Shown in pieces: positions 22,306 through 27,754 of a stretch of DNA of 33,210 nucleotides. Below the pieces are notes generated by a model. That model made no database searches and was not told where the DNA came from. It saw nothing but the letters and a program-made list of their open reading frames with translations. Within the stretch, counting starts at the first letter, position 1; each line of letters begins with the position of its first letter. The position numbers were made by a program, and so were the translations under genes. The DNA comes from an uncultured Gammaproteobacteria bacterium (GTDB lineage: Bacteria; Pseudomonadota; Gammaproteobacteria; Pseudomonadales; Pseudohongiellaceae): assembly GCA_903887045.1 (NCBI GenBank), contig CAISOD010000029.1, positions 1 through 33,210 on the forward strand, given 5' to 3'.

Positions 22306-22929
22306 TCAACGCAGCCCTGCTACATACGAGGCAACTGCGGCAATTTCGGTGTCGGTCAAACGGGCCGCCATCATTCGCATGACTTCGGCTTCGTCGTTGG
22401 CGCGTTCGCCAGAGCGGAACGCTTTCAGCTGCAGCTCAACATAGGGTGTGTCTTGACCGCTGAGAGCGGGGTAGCCGGCGGCGGCATTGCCTTTGCCGTC
22501 AGGCGAATGGCAAGCCGAACATGCGGCCACGCCAATACTGGCGTTACCTGCGCGGTACAGTTCCTGGCCTACGGCAAGTTTGCTCTCTTCAACAGCGCCA
22601 ACCGGCGCATCCAGGCTGGCAAAGTATGCAGCCATGTCGGCCAGATCCTGCTCGGTGGACGCGGCCAGGATACCGGCCATCAACGGTACTTTGCGGATAT
22701 CAGCCTTGATTTCCTGCATTTGCTTCAACAAATAGCGTTCGCCCTGACCCCCCAGTTTGGGCACGTTGGGCAGCACGCTGTCATTGCCGGAAGGGCCGTG
22801 GCAGGCGGCGCAAGTTGCCACTTTGGCCTGGCCAGCCTGAGCGTTGCCCTGGGCATACGCGAAGGAGGAAGTGAGCGCGGTAAACAGCACCGCGGAAACA
22901 ACGCTTTTCACCAAAGTCTGGGTAGTCAC
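22306..22929 (-). CDS. Cytochrome c4-type diheme cytochrome c
   Basis: Two CXXCH motifs (CAACH, CSACH); Sec signal [25 protein letters not shown] at 22929 or ATG at 22980 as start. Confidence 0.92.
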
Positions 22930-23062
22930 GATAGATGTGCCTTTGCAAGTAGAATACAGGTACTTTTTGAGCGGGCGCATTGTACTCCAGGAGCCCAATC
23001 ATTCCCAAGGGAGCCTCTGCGCAACTGTGAGCCTCCCAAGTCGTCAGCCCCCCGGATACCCA

Positions 23063-23698
23063 GTGAGCCCTTCTCTCCCGTACCAGCAAGCCAGTTATAC
23101 CATCAGCGCGCCCCGTCTGGAGCTTTGTCCGACCGACTCCGAGGCCGAAGTTGCCTTCATCGGCCGCTCCAATGCCGGCAAGTCGAGCGCGATCAATGCG
23201 TTGACCAGCCAGAACAAGCTGGCTCGCACCAGCAAAACCCCCGGCCGCACCCAGTTGCTCAACTACTTCACTCTCGCCCCGGGTCGCTATCTGGTGGATG
23301 TACCCGGCTTCGGCTACGCCAAGGTATCGGCTGACATGCAACGCCAATGGCAACACCAGCTGGAACGCTATCTGCAAAAGCGCGAAGTCCTTAGCGGGCT
23401 GGTTTTGCTGATGGATATCCGCCACCCATTCATGGACAGCGACAACATGATGATCAACTGGTGCTCCCAGTCCGCCATCCCGCTGCATATCCTGCTGACC
23501 AAAGCCGACAAACTCGCGTTCGGGCCTGCCAAAACCGCACTGTTGCAAGTACGCAAGCAACTCAGCGAAAAGTCCGAACTCGCCACCGTGCAGCTGTTCT
23601 CGGCCCTGAAAAACCAGGGAGTGGACGAACTACGCGCCAAACTGGATTCGTGGCTGGCGCCAAGCGCAAAGGAAGAAGCCGGCGAAGATTCTGTTTAG
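23063..23698 (+). CDS. engB: Ribosome biogenesis GTP-binding protein EngB/YihA/YsxC
   Basis: [46 protein letters not shown] start at 23063. Confidence 0.94.
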
Positions 23699-23842: not shown

Positions 23843-23974
23843 AAAAGACGCGGGCCCCGACCGTAGGAGAAGACAGTCGGGGCCCACTTTGCTCCTGACC
23901 CCGGCAGTTAACCATCAGGAGGTATCTCTCTCAAACAGCAGCCTGGAAAAATCGGGGAGAAAAACCAGCCTGCA
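23843..23974 (-). ncRNA. Candidate Spot 42/ErsA-locus small RNA (putative, unannotated)
   Basis: Noncoding 395-nt gap between convergent engB and polA. Contains a sigma-E-like promoter, 5' hairpin (23938-23973), middle hairpin (23892-23921) and GC-rich terminator hairpin (23850-23887) with TCTTTT. Confidence 0.6.
23850..23887 (-). terminator. Terminator hairpin of sRNA candidate
   Basis: Minus strand GTGGGCCCCGACTG-TCTTCTCCTA-CGGTCGGGGCCCGC then GTCTTTTC. The two non-Watson-Crick positions are G-U only on the minus strand (C-A on plus). Confidence 0.75.
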
Positions 23975-23979
23975 CAATC

Positions 23980-24007
23980 TTTGAACACAGTCGTTCTAAA
24001 AAGTTCC
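23980..24007 (-). promoter_or_regulatory. Sigma-E/AlgU-like promoter of sRNA candidate
   Basis: Minus strand GGAACTT-N16-TCAAA; the 5' hairpin begins 7 nt after the -10 element. Confidence 0.65.
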
Positions 24008-24093: not shown

Positions 24094-26850
24094 TCAGTGC
24101 GCCTCGTCCCAGTTGCTGCCATGGCCCATATCAACCACCAACGGCACCGACAGCGCTGCCGCCGATGCCATGCGAAACCGCACCCCCTCCATCAGCAAAG
24201 CCAGATCAGCCTCGGCCACCTCGAACACCAGCTCATCGTGCACCTGCAGCACCAGGCGGGCGTCGAGACGGGCCACATCCAGCCAGTGGTCGATGTCGAC
24301 CATTGCCTGTTTGATGATGTCGGCTGCCGAGCCCTGCATGGGCGCGTTGATAGCGGTGCGTTCAGCGGCCTTGCGCAACATCGGATTGCGCGCCTTGATG
24401 TCGGGCAGGTAGAGACGTCGGCCGAACAGCGTTTCAACATACCCCTGCTCGGCAGCCTGCAAACGCGTGTTCTCCATGTAATCACGCACGCCTGGGTAGC
24501 GATGGAAATAGCGTTCGACATATTCCTGTGCCTCGCTGCGGCCGATACCGAGCTGGGCAGCAAGTCCGAACGCCGACATGCCATAGATGAGGCCGAAGTT
24601 GATTGCCTTGGCGCTACGGCGTTGATCGCTACTGACCTCGTTCAGCGCACAACCAAAAATTTCAGCTGCAGTTGCCCGATGCACATCGAGTCCTTCGGCG
24701 AACGCACGTACAAGGCCGGCATCGCTGGACAGATGCGCCATGATGCGCAGCTCAACTTGTGAATAGTCGGCTGCCAGCAGCAACTTGCCGGGGTCGGCAA
24801 CGAAGGCGCGACGAATGCGGCGACCTTCCTCGGTGCGAATCGGAATGTTCTGCAGGTTCGGGTCCATCGACGACAACCGGCCCGTTGCTGCCACTGCCTG
24901 TTGGAACGTACTGTGGATGCGACCACTGTCGGGCTGGATGTCAAGCGGCAGCTTGTCGGTGTAGGTGCTCTTGAGCTTGGCAAGGCCACGCTGCTCGAGA
25001 ATCACCTTCGGCAAGGGATAACCGTGCGTTTCCGCCAGCTCCTGTAACACCGGCTCGGCCGTGGACGGCTGACCCTTGTCGGTTTTGCTGATCACGGGGT
25101 AGCCCAGTTTCTCGAACAGGATTTTCTGCAACTGTGCCGGCGAACCCAGATTGAATTCTTCACCGGCCAACTCGAAGGCTTTTCGCTCCAGCTCAACGAG
25201 CCGCACCGCCAACTGCTGGCTCTGCGTAGCGAGCGCCTGCACGTTGACCTTGATGCCAGTCGCCTCCATACGTGCGAGTACCGGCAGCAGCGCAATTTCG
25301 AAATAGCGATAGACGTCAGCCAGCCGGCCAGTGTGCTCCAGCTTGTCGCTCAACAGGTAATGCAGGCGCAAGGTGAGATCGACACAGCGCGCGCTGTAGT
25401 CGGTCGCTTTGGCGATGTCGAGCTGGGAGTAAGTGAGTTTGTTGCGGCCTTTGCCCAGCAAAGATTCCGTGTCGGGCAAAATCTCGCCCAGATAATGGTC
25501 GCAACACTTTTCCAGCGTGTGTTTGAGTGCAACCGAGTCGAGCACGTACGACTGCAACATGGTGTCGTAGCGACGGCCACGCAAACGGATGCCGTGGCGT
25601 CGCAGCACATGCGACATGTATTTGAGATCGTGACCCACCTTGAACAGCGCCTGGTTTTCCAGCGCCGGCTTCAACAATGCGAGCACGCTGTCAGTCGACA
25701 ACTGTGCTTCGGCGCCGAGCATGTCGTGGCCAAGCGGGATGTACACGGCGTTGCCCGGCTTGCTGGCAAGTGCGATGCCGGTGATGCGCGCGAGCTGGAA
25801 GTGGGCATCGTCAGTCATCAGCGTGAGCGCGAGGCGTGGCGCGCTGGCGAGCGCGGCAAGGTAGTGCTGTAAATCAGTTTCGTTGTTTAGCGTACGGTAA
25901 TTCACCGTTGCTGGTGCTTGCCAGAGCGGCCCTTCAGCATTTGTTGTTGCAGACGGCTCAGGTGGGGCGCTTGCCGCTGGCGTCGATTGTATGCCTTGCT
26001 CTTCCAGCTCCCTGATCCAGCTCTTGAATTCGAGATCGCGGTAAAGCGACAGCAACGCTTCCTTGTCTTCTGCATTGTGCTTGAGGTCTTGCGGGCCGAA
26101 ACCGAGCGCAACATCAAGCTTGATGGTTGCCAGTTGGTACGACAACTTCAGCACGTCGATGCTGTTCCGCAGGTTGTCGCCTACCTTGCCGCCCACCTTG
26201 TCGGCCTGCGCAATCAGCGCATCGACCGAATCGAATTCCTGAAGCCATTTCACTGCCGTTTTCGGACCTACACCCTGCACACCTGGAATGTTGTCGACAC
26301 TGTCGCCCATCAAGGCAAGGTAGTCGATGATGCGTTCAGGCGGCAGGCCGAACTTGGTTTTGACACCTTCAATGTCGAGCCGCTCGTTAGTCATCGTGTT
26401 CAGCAGCGTGACGTGATCGTTGACGAGCTGCGCCATGTCCTTGTCGCCGGTCGAAATCAGTGTCGGCAATTTCTGCAGCCATGCCTGCTGCGCCAGTGTG
26501 CCAATGACATCGTCGGCTTCAACATCGTCAACCACCAACAGCGGCAACCCCATCGCGCGGATGATCGAGTGGATCGGTTCGATTTGTGAGCGCAGATCAT
26601 CGGGCATCGGCGGGCGATGCGCCTTGTATTCCGGATAGATATCGTCGCGGAATGTTTTGCCTTTGGCGTCGAACACTACAGCGATCGTACTGTTCGGGTA
26701 TTGTTTAATCAGGCTGCGGATCATGTTGATCACGCCCTTGATGGCGCCGGTCGCCTGGCCCTTGGTGTTGTTCAGCGGCGGCAGCGCGTGATACGCGCGA
26801 AACAGGTACGACGAACCATCGACCAGCACCAGCGGGGCTACATCACTCAT
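24094..26850 (-). CDS. polA: DNA polymerase I (3'-5' exonuclease site apparently inactive)
   Basis: 5' nuclease motifs (FRDDIYPEYKAHR, VDDVEADDVIGTLA), polymerase motifs A (AADYSQVELRI), B (RRSAKAINFGLIYG), C (QVHDELVFEV); start [19 protein letters not shown]. Confidence 0.97.
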   Translation of the reverse strand: MSDVAPLVLVDGSSYLFRAYHALPPLNNTKGQATGAIKGVINMIRSLIKQYPNSTIAVVFDAKGKTFRDDIYPEYKAHRPPMPDDLRSQIEPIHSIIRAMGLPLLVVDDVEADDVIGTLAQQAWLQKLPTLISTGDKDMAQLVNDHVTLLNTMTNERLDIEGVKTKFGLPPERIIDYLALMGDSVDNIPGVQGVGPKTAVKWLQEFDSVDALIAQADKVGGKVGDNLRNSIDVLKLSYQLATIKLDVALGFGPQDLKHNAEDKEALLSLYRDLEFKSWIRELEEQGIQSTPAASAPPEPSATTNAEGPLWQAPATVNYRTLNNETDLQHYLAALASAPRLALTLMTDDAHFQLARITGIALASKPGNAVYIPLGHDMLGAEAQLSTDSVLALLKPALENQALFKVGHDLKYMSHVLRRHGIRLRGRRYDTMLQSYVLDSVALKHTLEKCCDHYLGEILPDTESLLGKGRNKLTYSQLDIAKATDYSARCVDLTLRLHYLLSDKLEHTGRLADVYRYFEIALLPVLARMEATGIKVNVQALATQSQQLAVRLVELERKAFELAGEEFNLGSPAQLQKILFEKLGYPVISKTDKGQPSTAEPVLQELAETHGYPLPKVILEQRGLAKLKSTYTDKLPLDIQPDSGRIHSTFQQAVAATGRLSSMDPNLQNIPIRTEEGRRIRRAFVADPGKLLLAADYSQVELRIMAHLSSDAGLVRAFAEGLDVHRATAAEIFGCALNEVSSDQRRSAKAINFGLIYGMSAFGLAAQLGIGRSEAQEYVERYFHRYPGVRDYMENTRLQAAEQGYVETLFGRRLYLPDIKARNPMLRKAAERTAINAPMQGSAADIIKQAMVDIDHWLDVARLDARLVLQVHDELVFEVAEADLALLMEGVRFRMASAAALSVPLVVDMGHGSNWDEAH

Positions 26851-27754
26851 CGCGCTCTCCCATGCAGTGTTGCAGTGCGGATGCCAGCTGGCGCAGCAGC
26901 AGTGCATAGGCATCGGCAGCAGGGGCTATTGCCACGCCCAGCACATCGGCACTGACAATGCTGATCTCGCTGCCACTGAGCAAGGCATCAAGCTGCTGAT
27001 GATTTTCCGTGGGCTCGGTCAGCAGACAGTGGATATCCTGCGCAGCCAATTGCGCGCGCAACGCCACCACGCTGCGCACGCCGGGCGCGTTGTTGCTGCT
27101 GTCGGCAAGAGTCAGTGGTGCTTGCAGTCCGTGCTGTCGGGTGAAGTAACGGAAAGCATCGTGGCTTACTGACCATGGTTGCGTTTGCAACGGCTGCAGC
27201 GATAGCGCGAGCTCTGCGTCGACTGCGTCCAGCTGCAAGGAGAACACTTGCACATTGAATACGTAGCGATCTGCGTTGGCGGTGTCGAGCTGCTGCAGTT
27301 CCGTGGCGAGTGCAGTCGCGATGTGACGGGCATTGTGGCTGTCAAGCCAGAGATGCGGATCAATGGCGCCTTCAATTGAACCCAATTGGATACCGGGCAG
27401 TAGTTGTGCCGTTACCACACGTGCATCAATGTCGCTGATCACATCAACCAAGGGTACTTCCAATGCAGGCCCTGCCCACAACACCAGCTCCGCGTTCTGC
27501 AGGGCACGCCGTTCGGACGGCCGTAATGACAGATGATGCGGATCCTGGCCGGCACCGACAGCCAACTCAGGGGTACTGATGCCATCGGTGACGGCCGCCG
27601 CAATCAACTGCAACGGCTTGATACTGACGACCACAACGGGCGCGGCGACGCTGACACTGGCGCACAGCATTACAATGAGAGCGCACACAGCGCACTGCCA
27701 CAAACGGCACAGCGTCGACAGCGGCCAACAAAGCGAAAACACTAGGTAAATCAT
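26843..27754 (-). CDS. znuA: Zinc ABC transporter substrate-binding protein (ZnuA-like)
   Basis: [62 protein letters not shown] at 27754; divergent from znuCB. The listed ORF to 28645 extends antisense through znuC. Confidence 0.9.

Follow-up and report, generated by a model that had tools for sequence, protein, structure and literature searches.

Does the gap between polA and engB in the window (the whole 33,210-nucleotide stretch of DNA analysed here, from an uncultured gammaproteobacterium) hold a small RNA (sRNA) gene of its own, and what would such an RNA do? The question was put more broadly in 2013 by the authors of the sX13 study, who asked whether the polA loci of other bacteria encode similarly acting sRNAs (PMC3771888). 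In the window, polA (DNA polymerase I) is an open reading frame at 24094–26913 on the minus strand, the upstream same-strand neighbour of the element considered here, while the convergent neighbour is an open reading frame for an engB/yihA-type GTPase at 22844–23698 on the plus strand; the true start of either gene may be internal. A sequence-only reading had placed between them an unannotated minus-strand sRNA candidate with a sigma-E/AlgU-type promoter, and the promoter, stem-loops and terminator that it listed are all present where it put them.

The promoter (23980–24007, minus strand) consists of a −35 element GGAACTT (24007–24001), a 16-nt spacer and a −10 element TCAAA (23984–23980). It is followed on the same strand by a predicted sRNA of about 132 nt, with a probable start near 23974 and a probable end near 23843, supported by its fold, by covariation and by a covariance model, R1. 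Stem-loop 1 (SL1, 23938–23973) pairs GCAGGCTGG (23973–23965) with CCAGGCTGC (23946–23938) at eight of nine positions and encloses an 18-nt loop, TTTTTCTCCCCGATTTTT, between 23965 and 23946; this carries the near-invariant UUUUUCUCCCCGAUUUUU, in which CUCCCC is the proposed pairing seed. SL2 (23892–23921) is the stem CTCCTGA (23921–23915) with TCAGGAG (23898–23892), extended by a few pairs in the lowest-energy fold. SL3, tail included (23843–23887), is an intrinsic terminator with an 8-nt loop, CTTCTCCT, and the tail GTCTTTTC (GUCUUUU in RNA). The terminator and its TCTTTT, a short U-run, were as first read, but the stem has 15 pairs (23887–23850) and not 14; this was the only site returned by a terminator scan of the polA–engB gap. 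The 132-nt segment 23974–23843 has a folding energy of −63.0 kcal/mol; its dinucleotide shuffles give −44.8 ± 3.5 (z = −5.3), and none of 200 reached an energy as good.

We then looked at the same gap in relatives, where the absence of conserved hairpins and promoter, or of covariation, would have spoken against the gene. The C-terminal 400 amino acids of PolA found a match in 70 of 72 genomes. Searching the polA–engB gap in 58 genomes gave matches in 14 (the window's own and 13 relatives), and the copies lie between polA and a syntenic engB wherever the contig extends far enough. Homology among these syntenic gaps is limited to the promoter and the RNA, and the flanks do not align. All 14 syntenic copies have the promoter GAACT[TA]-N16-TC, with its spacing fixed while the spacer letters drift. 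The SL1 loop UUUUCUCCCCGAUUUU and the terminator-loop UCUCCU are almost unchanged, and the stems beneath them change with compensation: double-sided changes occur at 10 of 23 pairs, and the covariation score is 0.342, compared with 0.182 ± 0.016 after shuffling and at most 0.154 with partners slid. SL2 persists with altered letters and variable loop length in most relatives of the window's genus (g1) and of a second genus (g2); in a few copies, as in a third genus (g3), it cannot be clearly recognized. Across the relatives, SL1 and the terminator hold 39 G-U cells, which would be mismatches on the other strand, against 4 converse A-C cells; the minus strand is therefore the folded one, as the sequence-only reading had argued from G-U pairs in the window.

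R1 matched 10 of the 11 genomes of g1, five of the six of g2 (the sixth copy is cut by a contig end) and all five g3 members seen (74–90 bits), and gave no good match in the remaining genera of the window's family. No Rfam family matched the window RNA, either at gathering cut-offs or at E up to 5. Weak matches to mir-4523 and AaHKsRNA54 were rejected as compositional, as was CcsR1 (RF02791; E = 0.086), which shares a C/U-rich terminator loop and whose 17.4 bits fall far under the gathering score of 65.3. From its fold, covariation and conservation, we regard the polA–engB element as very probably a real sRNA gene, almost certainly an undescribed one, kept for its folds, loops and promoter of envelope-stress type in three genera of uncultured gammaproteobacteria. 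That it is merely a polA 3′ untranslated region, with a terminator that ends or stabilizes the polA mRNA, is highly improbable: the same strand, the position directly 3′ of polA and the terminator would all fit, but a terminator needs neither invariant loops nor a promoter, still less one of sigma-E type whose spacing is fixed over drifting letters, and the ErsA gene at the same place produces an independent transcript, sigma-22-dependent by experiment (PMC8395346).

The sRNA gene is absent from the polA locus in sister genera g4–g8 (G013, G014, G016, G017 and G022); in g4, g6, g7 and g8, polA passes almost straight into engB. Should the gene go back to the ancestor of the order, its absence here looks like loss. 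R1 matches of 18–28 bits in g5 were rejected, and the polA-downstream regions read in that genus show no such gene. A pattern scan of named genomes gave 17 matches, 15 of which were accepted; these are metagenome-assembled genomes (MAGs), almost all of which carry the label Gammaproteobacteria or Pseudomonadales, and the names of several suggest that they come from lakes. The other two, L057 and L059, were set aside as chance on taxonomy alone. One record, L063 (CAMDML010000007.1), is titled as a Klebsiella pneumoniae MAG and carries the polA–sRNA–engB locus of the window's family; its name looks wrong.

Which sigma factor would read this promoter? Its motif is of the textbook RpoE/AlgU type, and this locus is the one place in the 3.39-Mb genome where GGAACTTN16TCWRA is found. 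The genome encodes an RpoE (TIGR02939, 289.7 bits; cut-off 236) whose nearest solved relatives are 6in7 (an AlgU-type sigma, named sigma-H there) and 8z6g and whose region-4 stretch CPVGTVRSRIFRAREAID is identical to AlgU. An RseA-like open reading frame adjoins rpoE, at 31 bits, under that family's cut-off. ErsA, at the same locus, is AlgU-dependent. Some observations would suit a promoter for another factor, whether another ECF sigma or sigma-70, and an RNA unlinked to envelope stress: the eight Sigma70_r2 matches in the genome include several other sigma factors, and the region upstream of its rpoE (L016:1050–1440) has no sigma-E-type motif, although rpoE autoregulation is usual elsewhere. 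A genome-wide scan with a strict sigma-E motif, aimed at the wider regulon, found no excess over reversed controls. As no sigma-70-type site was found in the polA–engB gap and the motif and the region-4 agreement point to RpoE, we consider another sigma factor improbable and RpoE control of the sRNA, judged from these sequences, quite probable.

The nearest described systems lie at the same locus. ErsA (Pseudomon-1, from Pseudomonas) shares with the window RNA the polA-downstream position and strand, a sigma-E/AlgU-type promoter, three stem-loops with C-rich stretches and an intrinsic terminator, so that the positional analogy to ErsA drawn in the sequence-only reading holds. The kinship in sequence that a covariance comparison with the Spot 42 and ErsA models might have revealed was not found: the ErsA model RF01719 (gathering score 50 bits) and that of Spot 42 (RF00021) left the window unmatched even when E values up to 5 were allowed, nor did the sX13 model (RF02232) match. 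As a positive control, RF01719 scored 121 bits on a Pseudomonadaceae-like copy, L091 (family labels of this kind are our own reading), and it gave 30–40 bits to two other families. In ErsA, moreover, SL1 and SL2 are separated by a long targeting domain that is U-rich and unstructured. Fold and alignment give the window RNA a short purine-containing linker there, and its proposed seed lies instead in the SL1 loop.

Lacking such a U-rich domain, the window RNA is nearer in layout to Xanthomonas sX13 than to ErsA. The sX13 RNA (Xanthomonadaceae) likewise lies downstream of polA and has three strong stems and C-rich apical loops, but it has C4 or C5 in three loops, whereas the window RNA has C4 in loop 1 only and CUUCUCCU in the terminator loop. 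Spot 42, from enterobacteria, also lies between polA and yihA/engB; it is not a sigma-E gene, is repressed by CRP and targets carbon metabolism, unlike the targets proposed below. The alpha-r7 sRNAs of alphaproteobacteria, a distant class that we liken to the window RNA by description only, share the polA locus, three stem-loops and apical C-rich motifs (PMC3771888).

To place these RNAs in a wider frame, we read the region downstream of the polA stop in about 60 genomes, with most families of the Pseudomonadales represented by a single genome. The motif GAACT-N17-TC[AT] occurs within 260 nt of polA in 29 of 70 regions, against 0.35 in shuffles; about half of the 29 come from the clade of the window itself, and among the others a few are so distant from polA that they may be chance matches. 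With the window's genus left out, N17 stands out sharply as the commonest spacing, at 20 regions against 6 for the runner-up. Inspection showed that some 15 other families have a sigma-E-type promoter, mostly 20–90 nt after polA, followed by an RNA of 70–145 nt that closes with a terminator; nearly all of these RNAs contain CCCC, and it is often unpaired. Since RNAs this rich in C have a fair chance of containing CCCC anyway (0.1–0.75 by shuffling), the case for a family link is carried by position, strand, promoter and spacing in combination. A sigma-E-type promoter soon after the polA stop, a short C-rich RNA and a terminator, the features of the proposed group of polA-linked, sigma-E-driven C-rich sRNAs, were found together in the window and 13 relatives. 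Two further arrangements were seen at this locus. In L089, L090 and L094 (f10 g17, 6–7.4 Mb), two tandem ErsA-like sRNA genes lie about 205 nt apart downstream of polA, each with its own sigma-E-type promoter and with any RF01719 scores below gathering. In L106 (f34), the polA-linked sRNA is a weak sX13 match (34 bits) and has a hairpin loop, UUUCUCCCC, like that of the window RNA.

These loci could still have been filled independently, the polA–engB gap being a permissive site at which C-rich sRNAs arose repeatedly and the window RNA a real sRNA without ErsA kinship. The failure of RF01719 and Spot 42 to match would be expected on that account, as would the failure of R1 to recognize the genes of other families convincingly (beyond f1 its best score was 23.5 bits, on L094) and the lack of sequence similarity among the published polA-linked sRNAs (PMC3771888). 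Yet strand, distance from polA, promoter type and spacing, and CCCC are alike in nearly all families inspected, ErsA included, and one old gene with a fast-evolving RNA body is the simplest reading; repeated origin thus appears rather unlikely. In our reading the window RNA, although by sequence not a member of ErsA, is a sequence-divergent lineage of the sigma-E-driven sRNA locus that is found next to polA through much of the Pseudomonadales and includes ErsA; it and ErsA are probably divergent forms of one old polA-linked gene. Given similar genes in many families, the positional analogy becomes likely common descent.

How might the RNA act? We propose a stand-alone, trans-acting sRNA, transcribed from the minus strand between its own sigma-E (RpoE/AlgU) promoter and its intrinsic terminator. 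Envelope stress would free RpoE, the sRNA would be made, and the UCUCCCC loop of SL1 would base-pair to ribosome-binding sites rich in G and thereby prevent translation, with outer-membrane TonB-dependent receptors as the chief targets; the terminator loop CUUCUCCU, a possible second seed, may pair with such sites as well. The C-rich loops of sX13 repress in this way, through G-rich ribosome-binding sites near starts (PMC3771888). ErsA shows sigma-22 control at the same locus and is Hfq-dependent in Pseudomonas (PMC8395346, PMC8575079). Hfq, which the genome encodes, would probably take part in the pairing step; sX13 differs in acting without Hfq. Taken jointly, a real sRNA gene, RpoE control and action through C-rich loops make up a likely account.

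The search for targets extended over part of the genome. A search for the nine-base seed before ATG in five genomes gave 19 matches against 4 for the reversed seed, but most of them fell away from true gene starts, and no gene was hit in more than one genome. Guided by ErsA, we examined algC/glmM-type starts and found no conserved G-rich site, and so, unlike ErsA, the window RNA gives no sign of algC as a target. hfq is a target of sX13; here its start reads ACAGGAGATGAACATG, with no GGGG. Neither the seed search nor the algC-type search yielded a single conserved target.

A class of genes gave a different picture. The genome has 55 TonB-receptor plug matches, and in it (G000) GGGGA stands just before the start codon of 16 of 47 receptors (34%) compared with 10 of 330 other genes (3%), a figure that was not pre-planned, since receptors were examined after the motif had been noticed in a first listing, and for which the other genomes serve as the check. 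The generic word GGAG did not differ between receptor and other starts. Under a uniform pipeline, five genomes with the sRNA have GGGGA at 25–50% of their receptor starts, and three genomes lacking it have 8, 20 (G013) and 36% (G014), compared with 1–7% of the starts of other genes; gene starts were called by a simple script whose preference for Shine-Dalgarno-like starts applied alike to genomes with and without the sRNA. Pooled, the motif precedes 31 of 76 receptors with the sRNA and 12 of 65 without it (p = 0.006, over few independent lineages). In a flank comparison, the 31 GGGGA sites fell into 31 groups, although one evident orthologous pair (L211 and L213) escaped grouping. Receptors with a GGGGA Shine-Dalgarno sequence include L222 and L254 in the window's own genome and L213 and L238 in relatives.

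The main targets may equally lie elsewhere, GGGGA being a receptor-specific translation signal or the site of another regulator while the sRNA itself is real and RpoE-driven. Two of the three sRNA-less relatives, G013 and G014, keep the receptor excess, the sX13 authors noted that G-rich motifs can be translational enhancers (PMC3771888), and duplex energies did not cleanly separate sRNA-bearing from sRNA-less genomes; the pooled excess with the sRNA pulls the other way. We see this alternative as evenly poised. TonB-dependent receptors as the target class of the window sRNA are thus a good hypothesis, not a finding, and their repression by the sRNA is a tentative proposal. More doubtful still is the widest form of the idea, in which one ancestral RpoE-driven gene next to polA, with ErsA and the window RNA among its descendants, would extend across much of the Pseudomonadales and its C-rich loop would act as a class-wide brake on GGGGA receptors.

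For the Pseudomonadales, the presence half of the 2013 question on polA loci is answered by sequence, and the half that concerns action is made testable. If the reading is true, ErsA, described in Pseudomonas, would be joined to an older gene that has kept its position and promoter through turnover of the RNA body, a useful case for the study of sRNA evolution. The reading would also suggest, as a simple hypothesis, how bacteria rich in receptors might reduce an entire class of outer-membrane proteins when the envelope is stressed.
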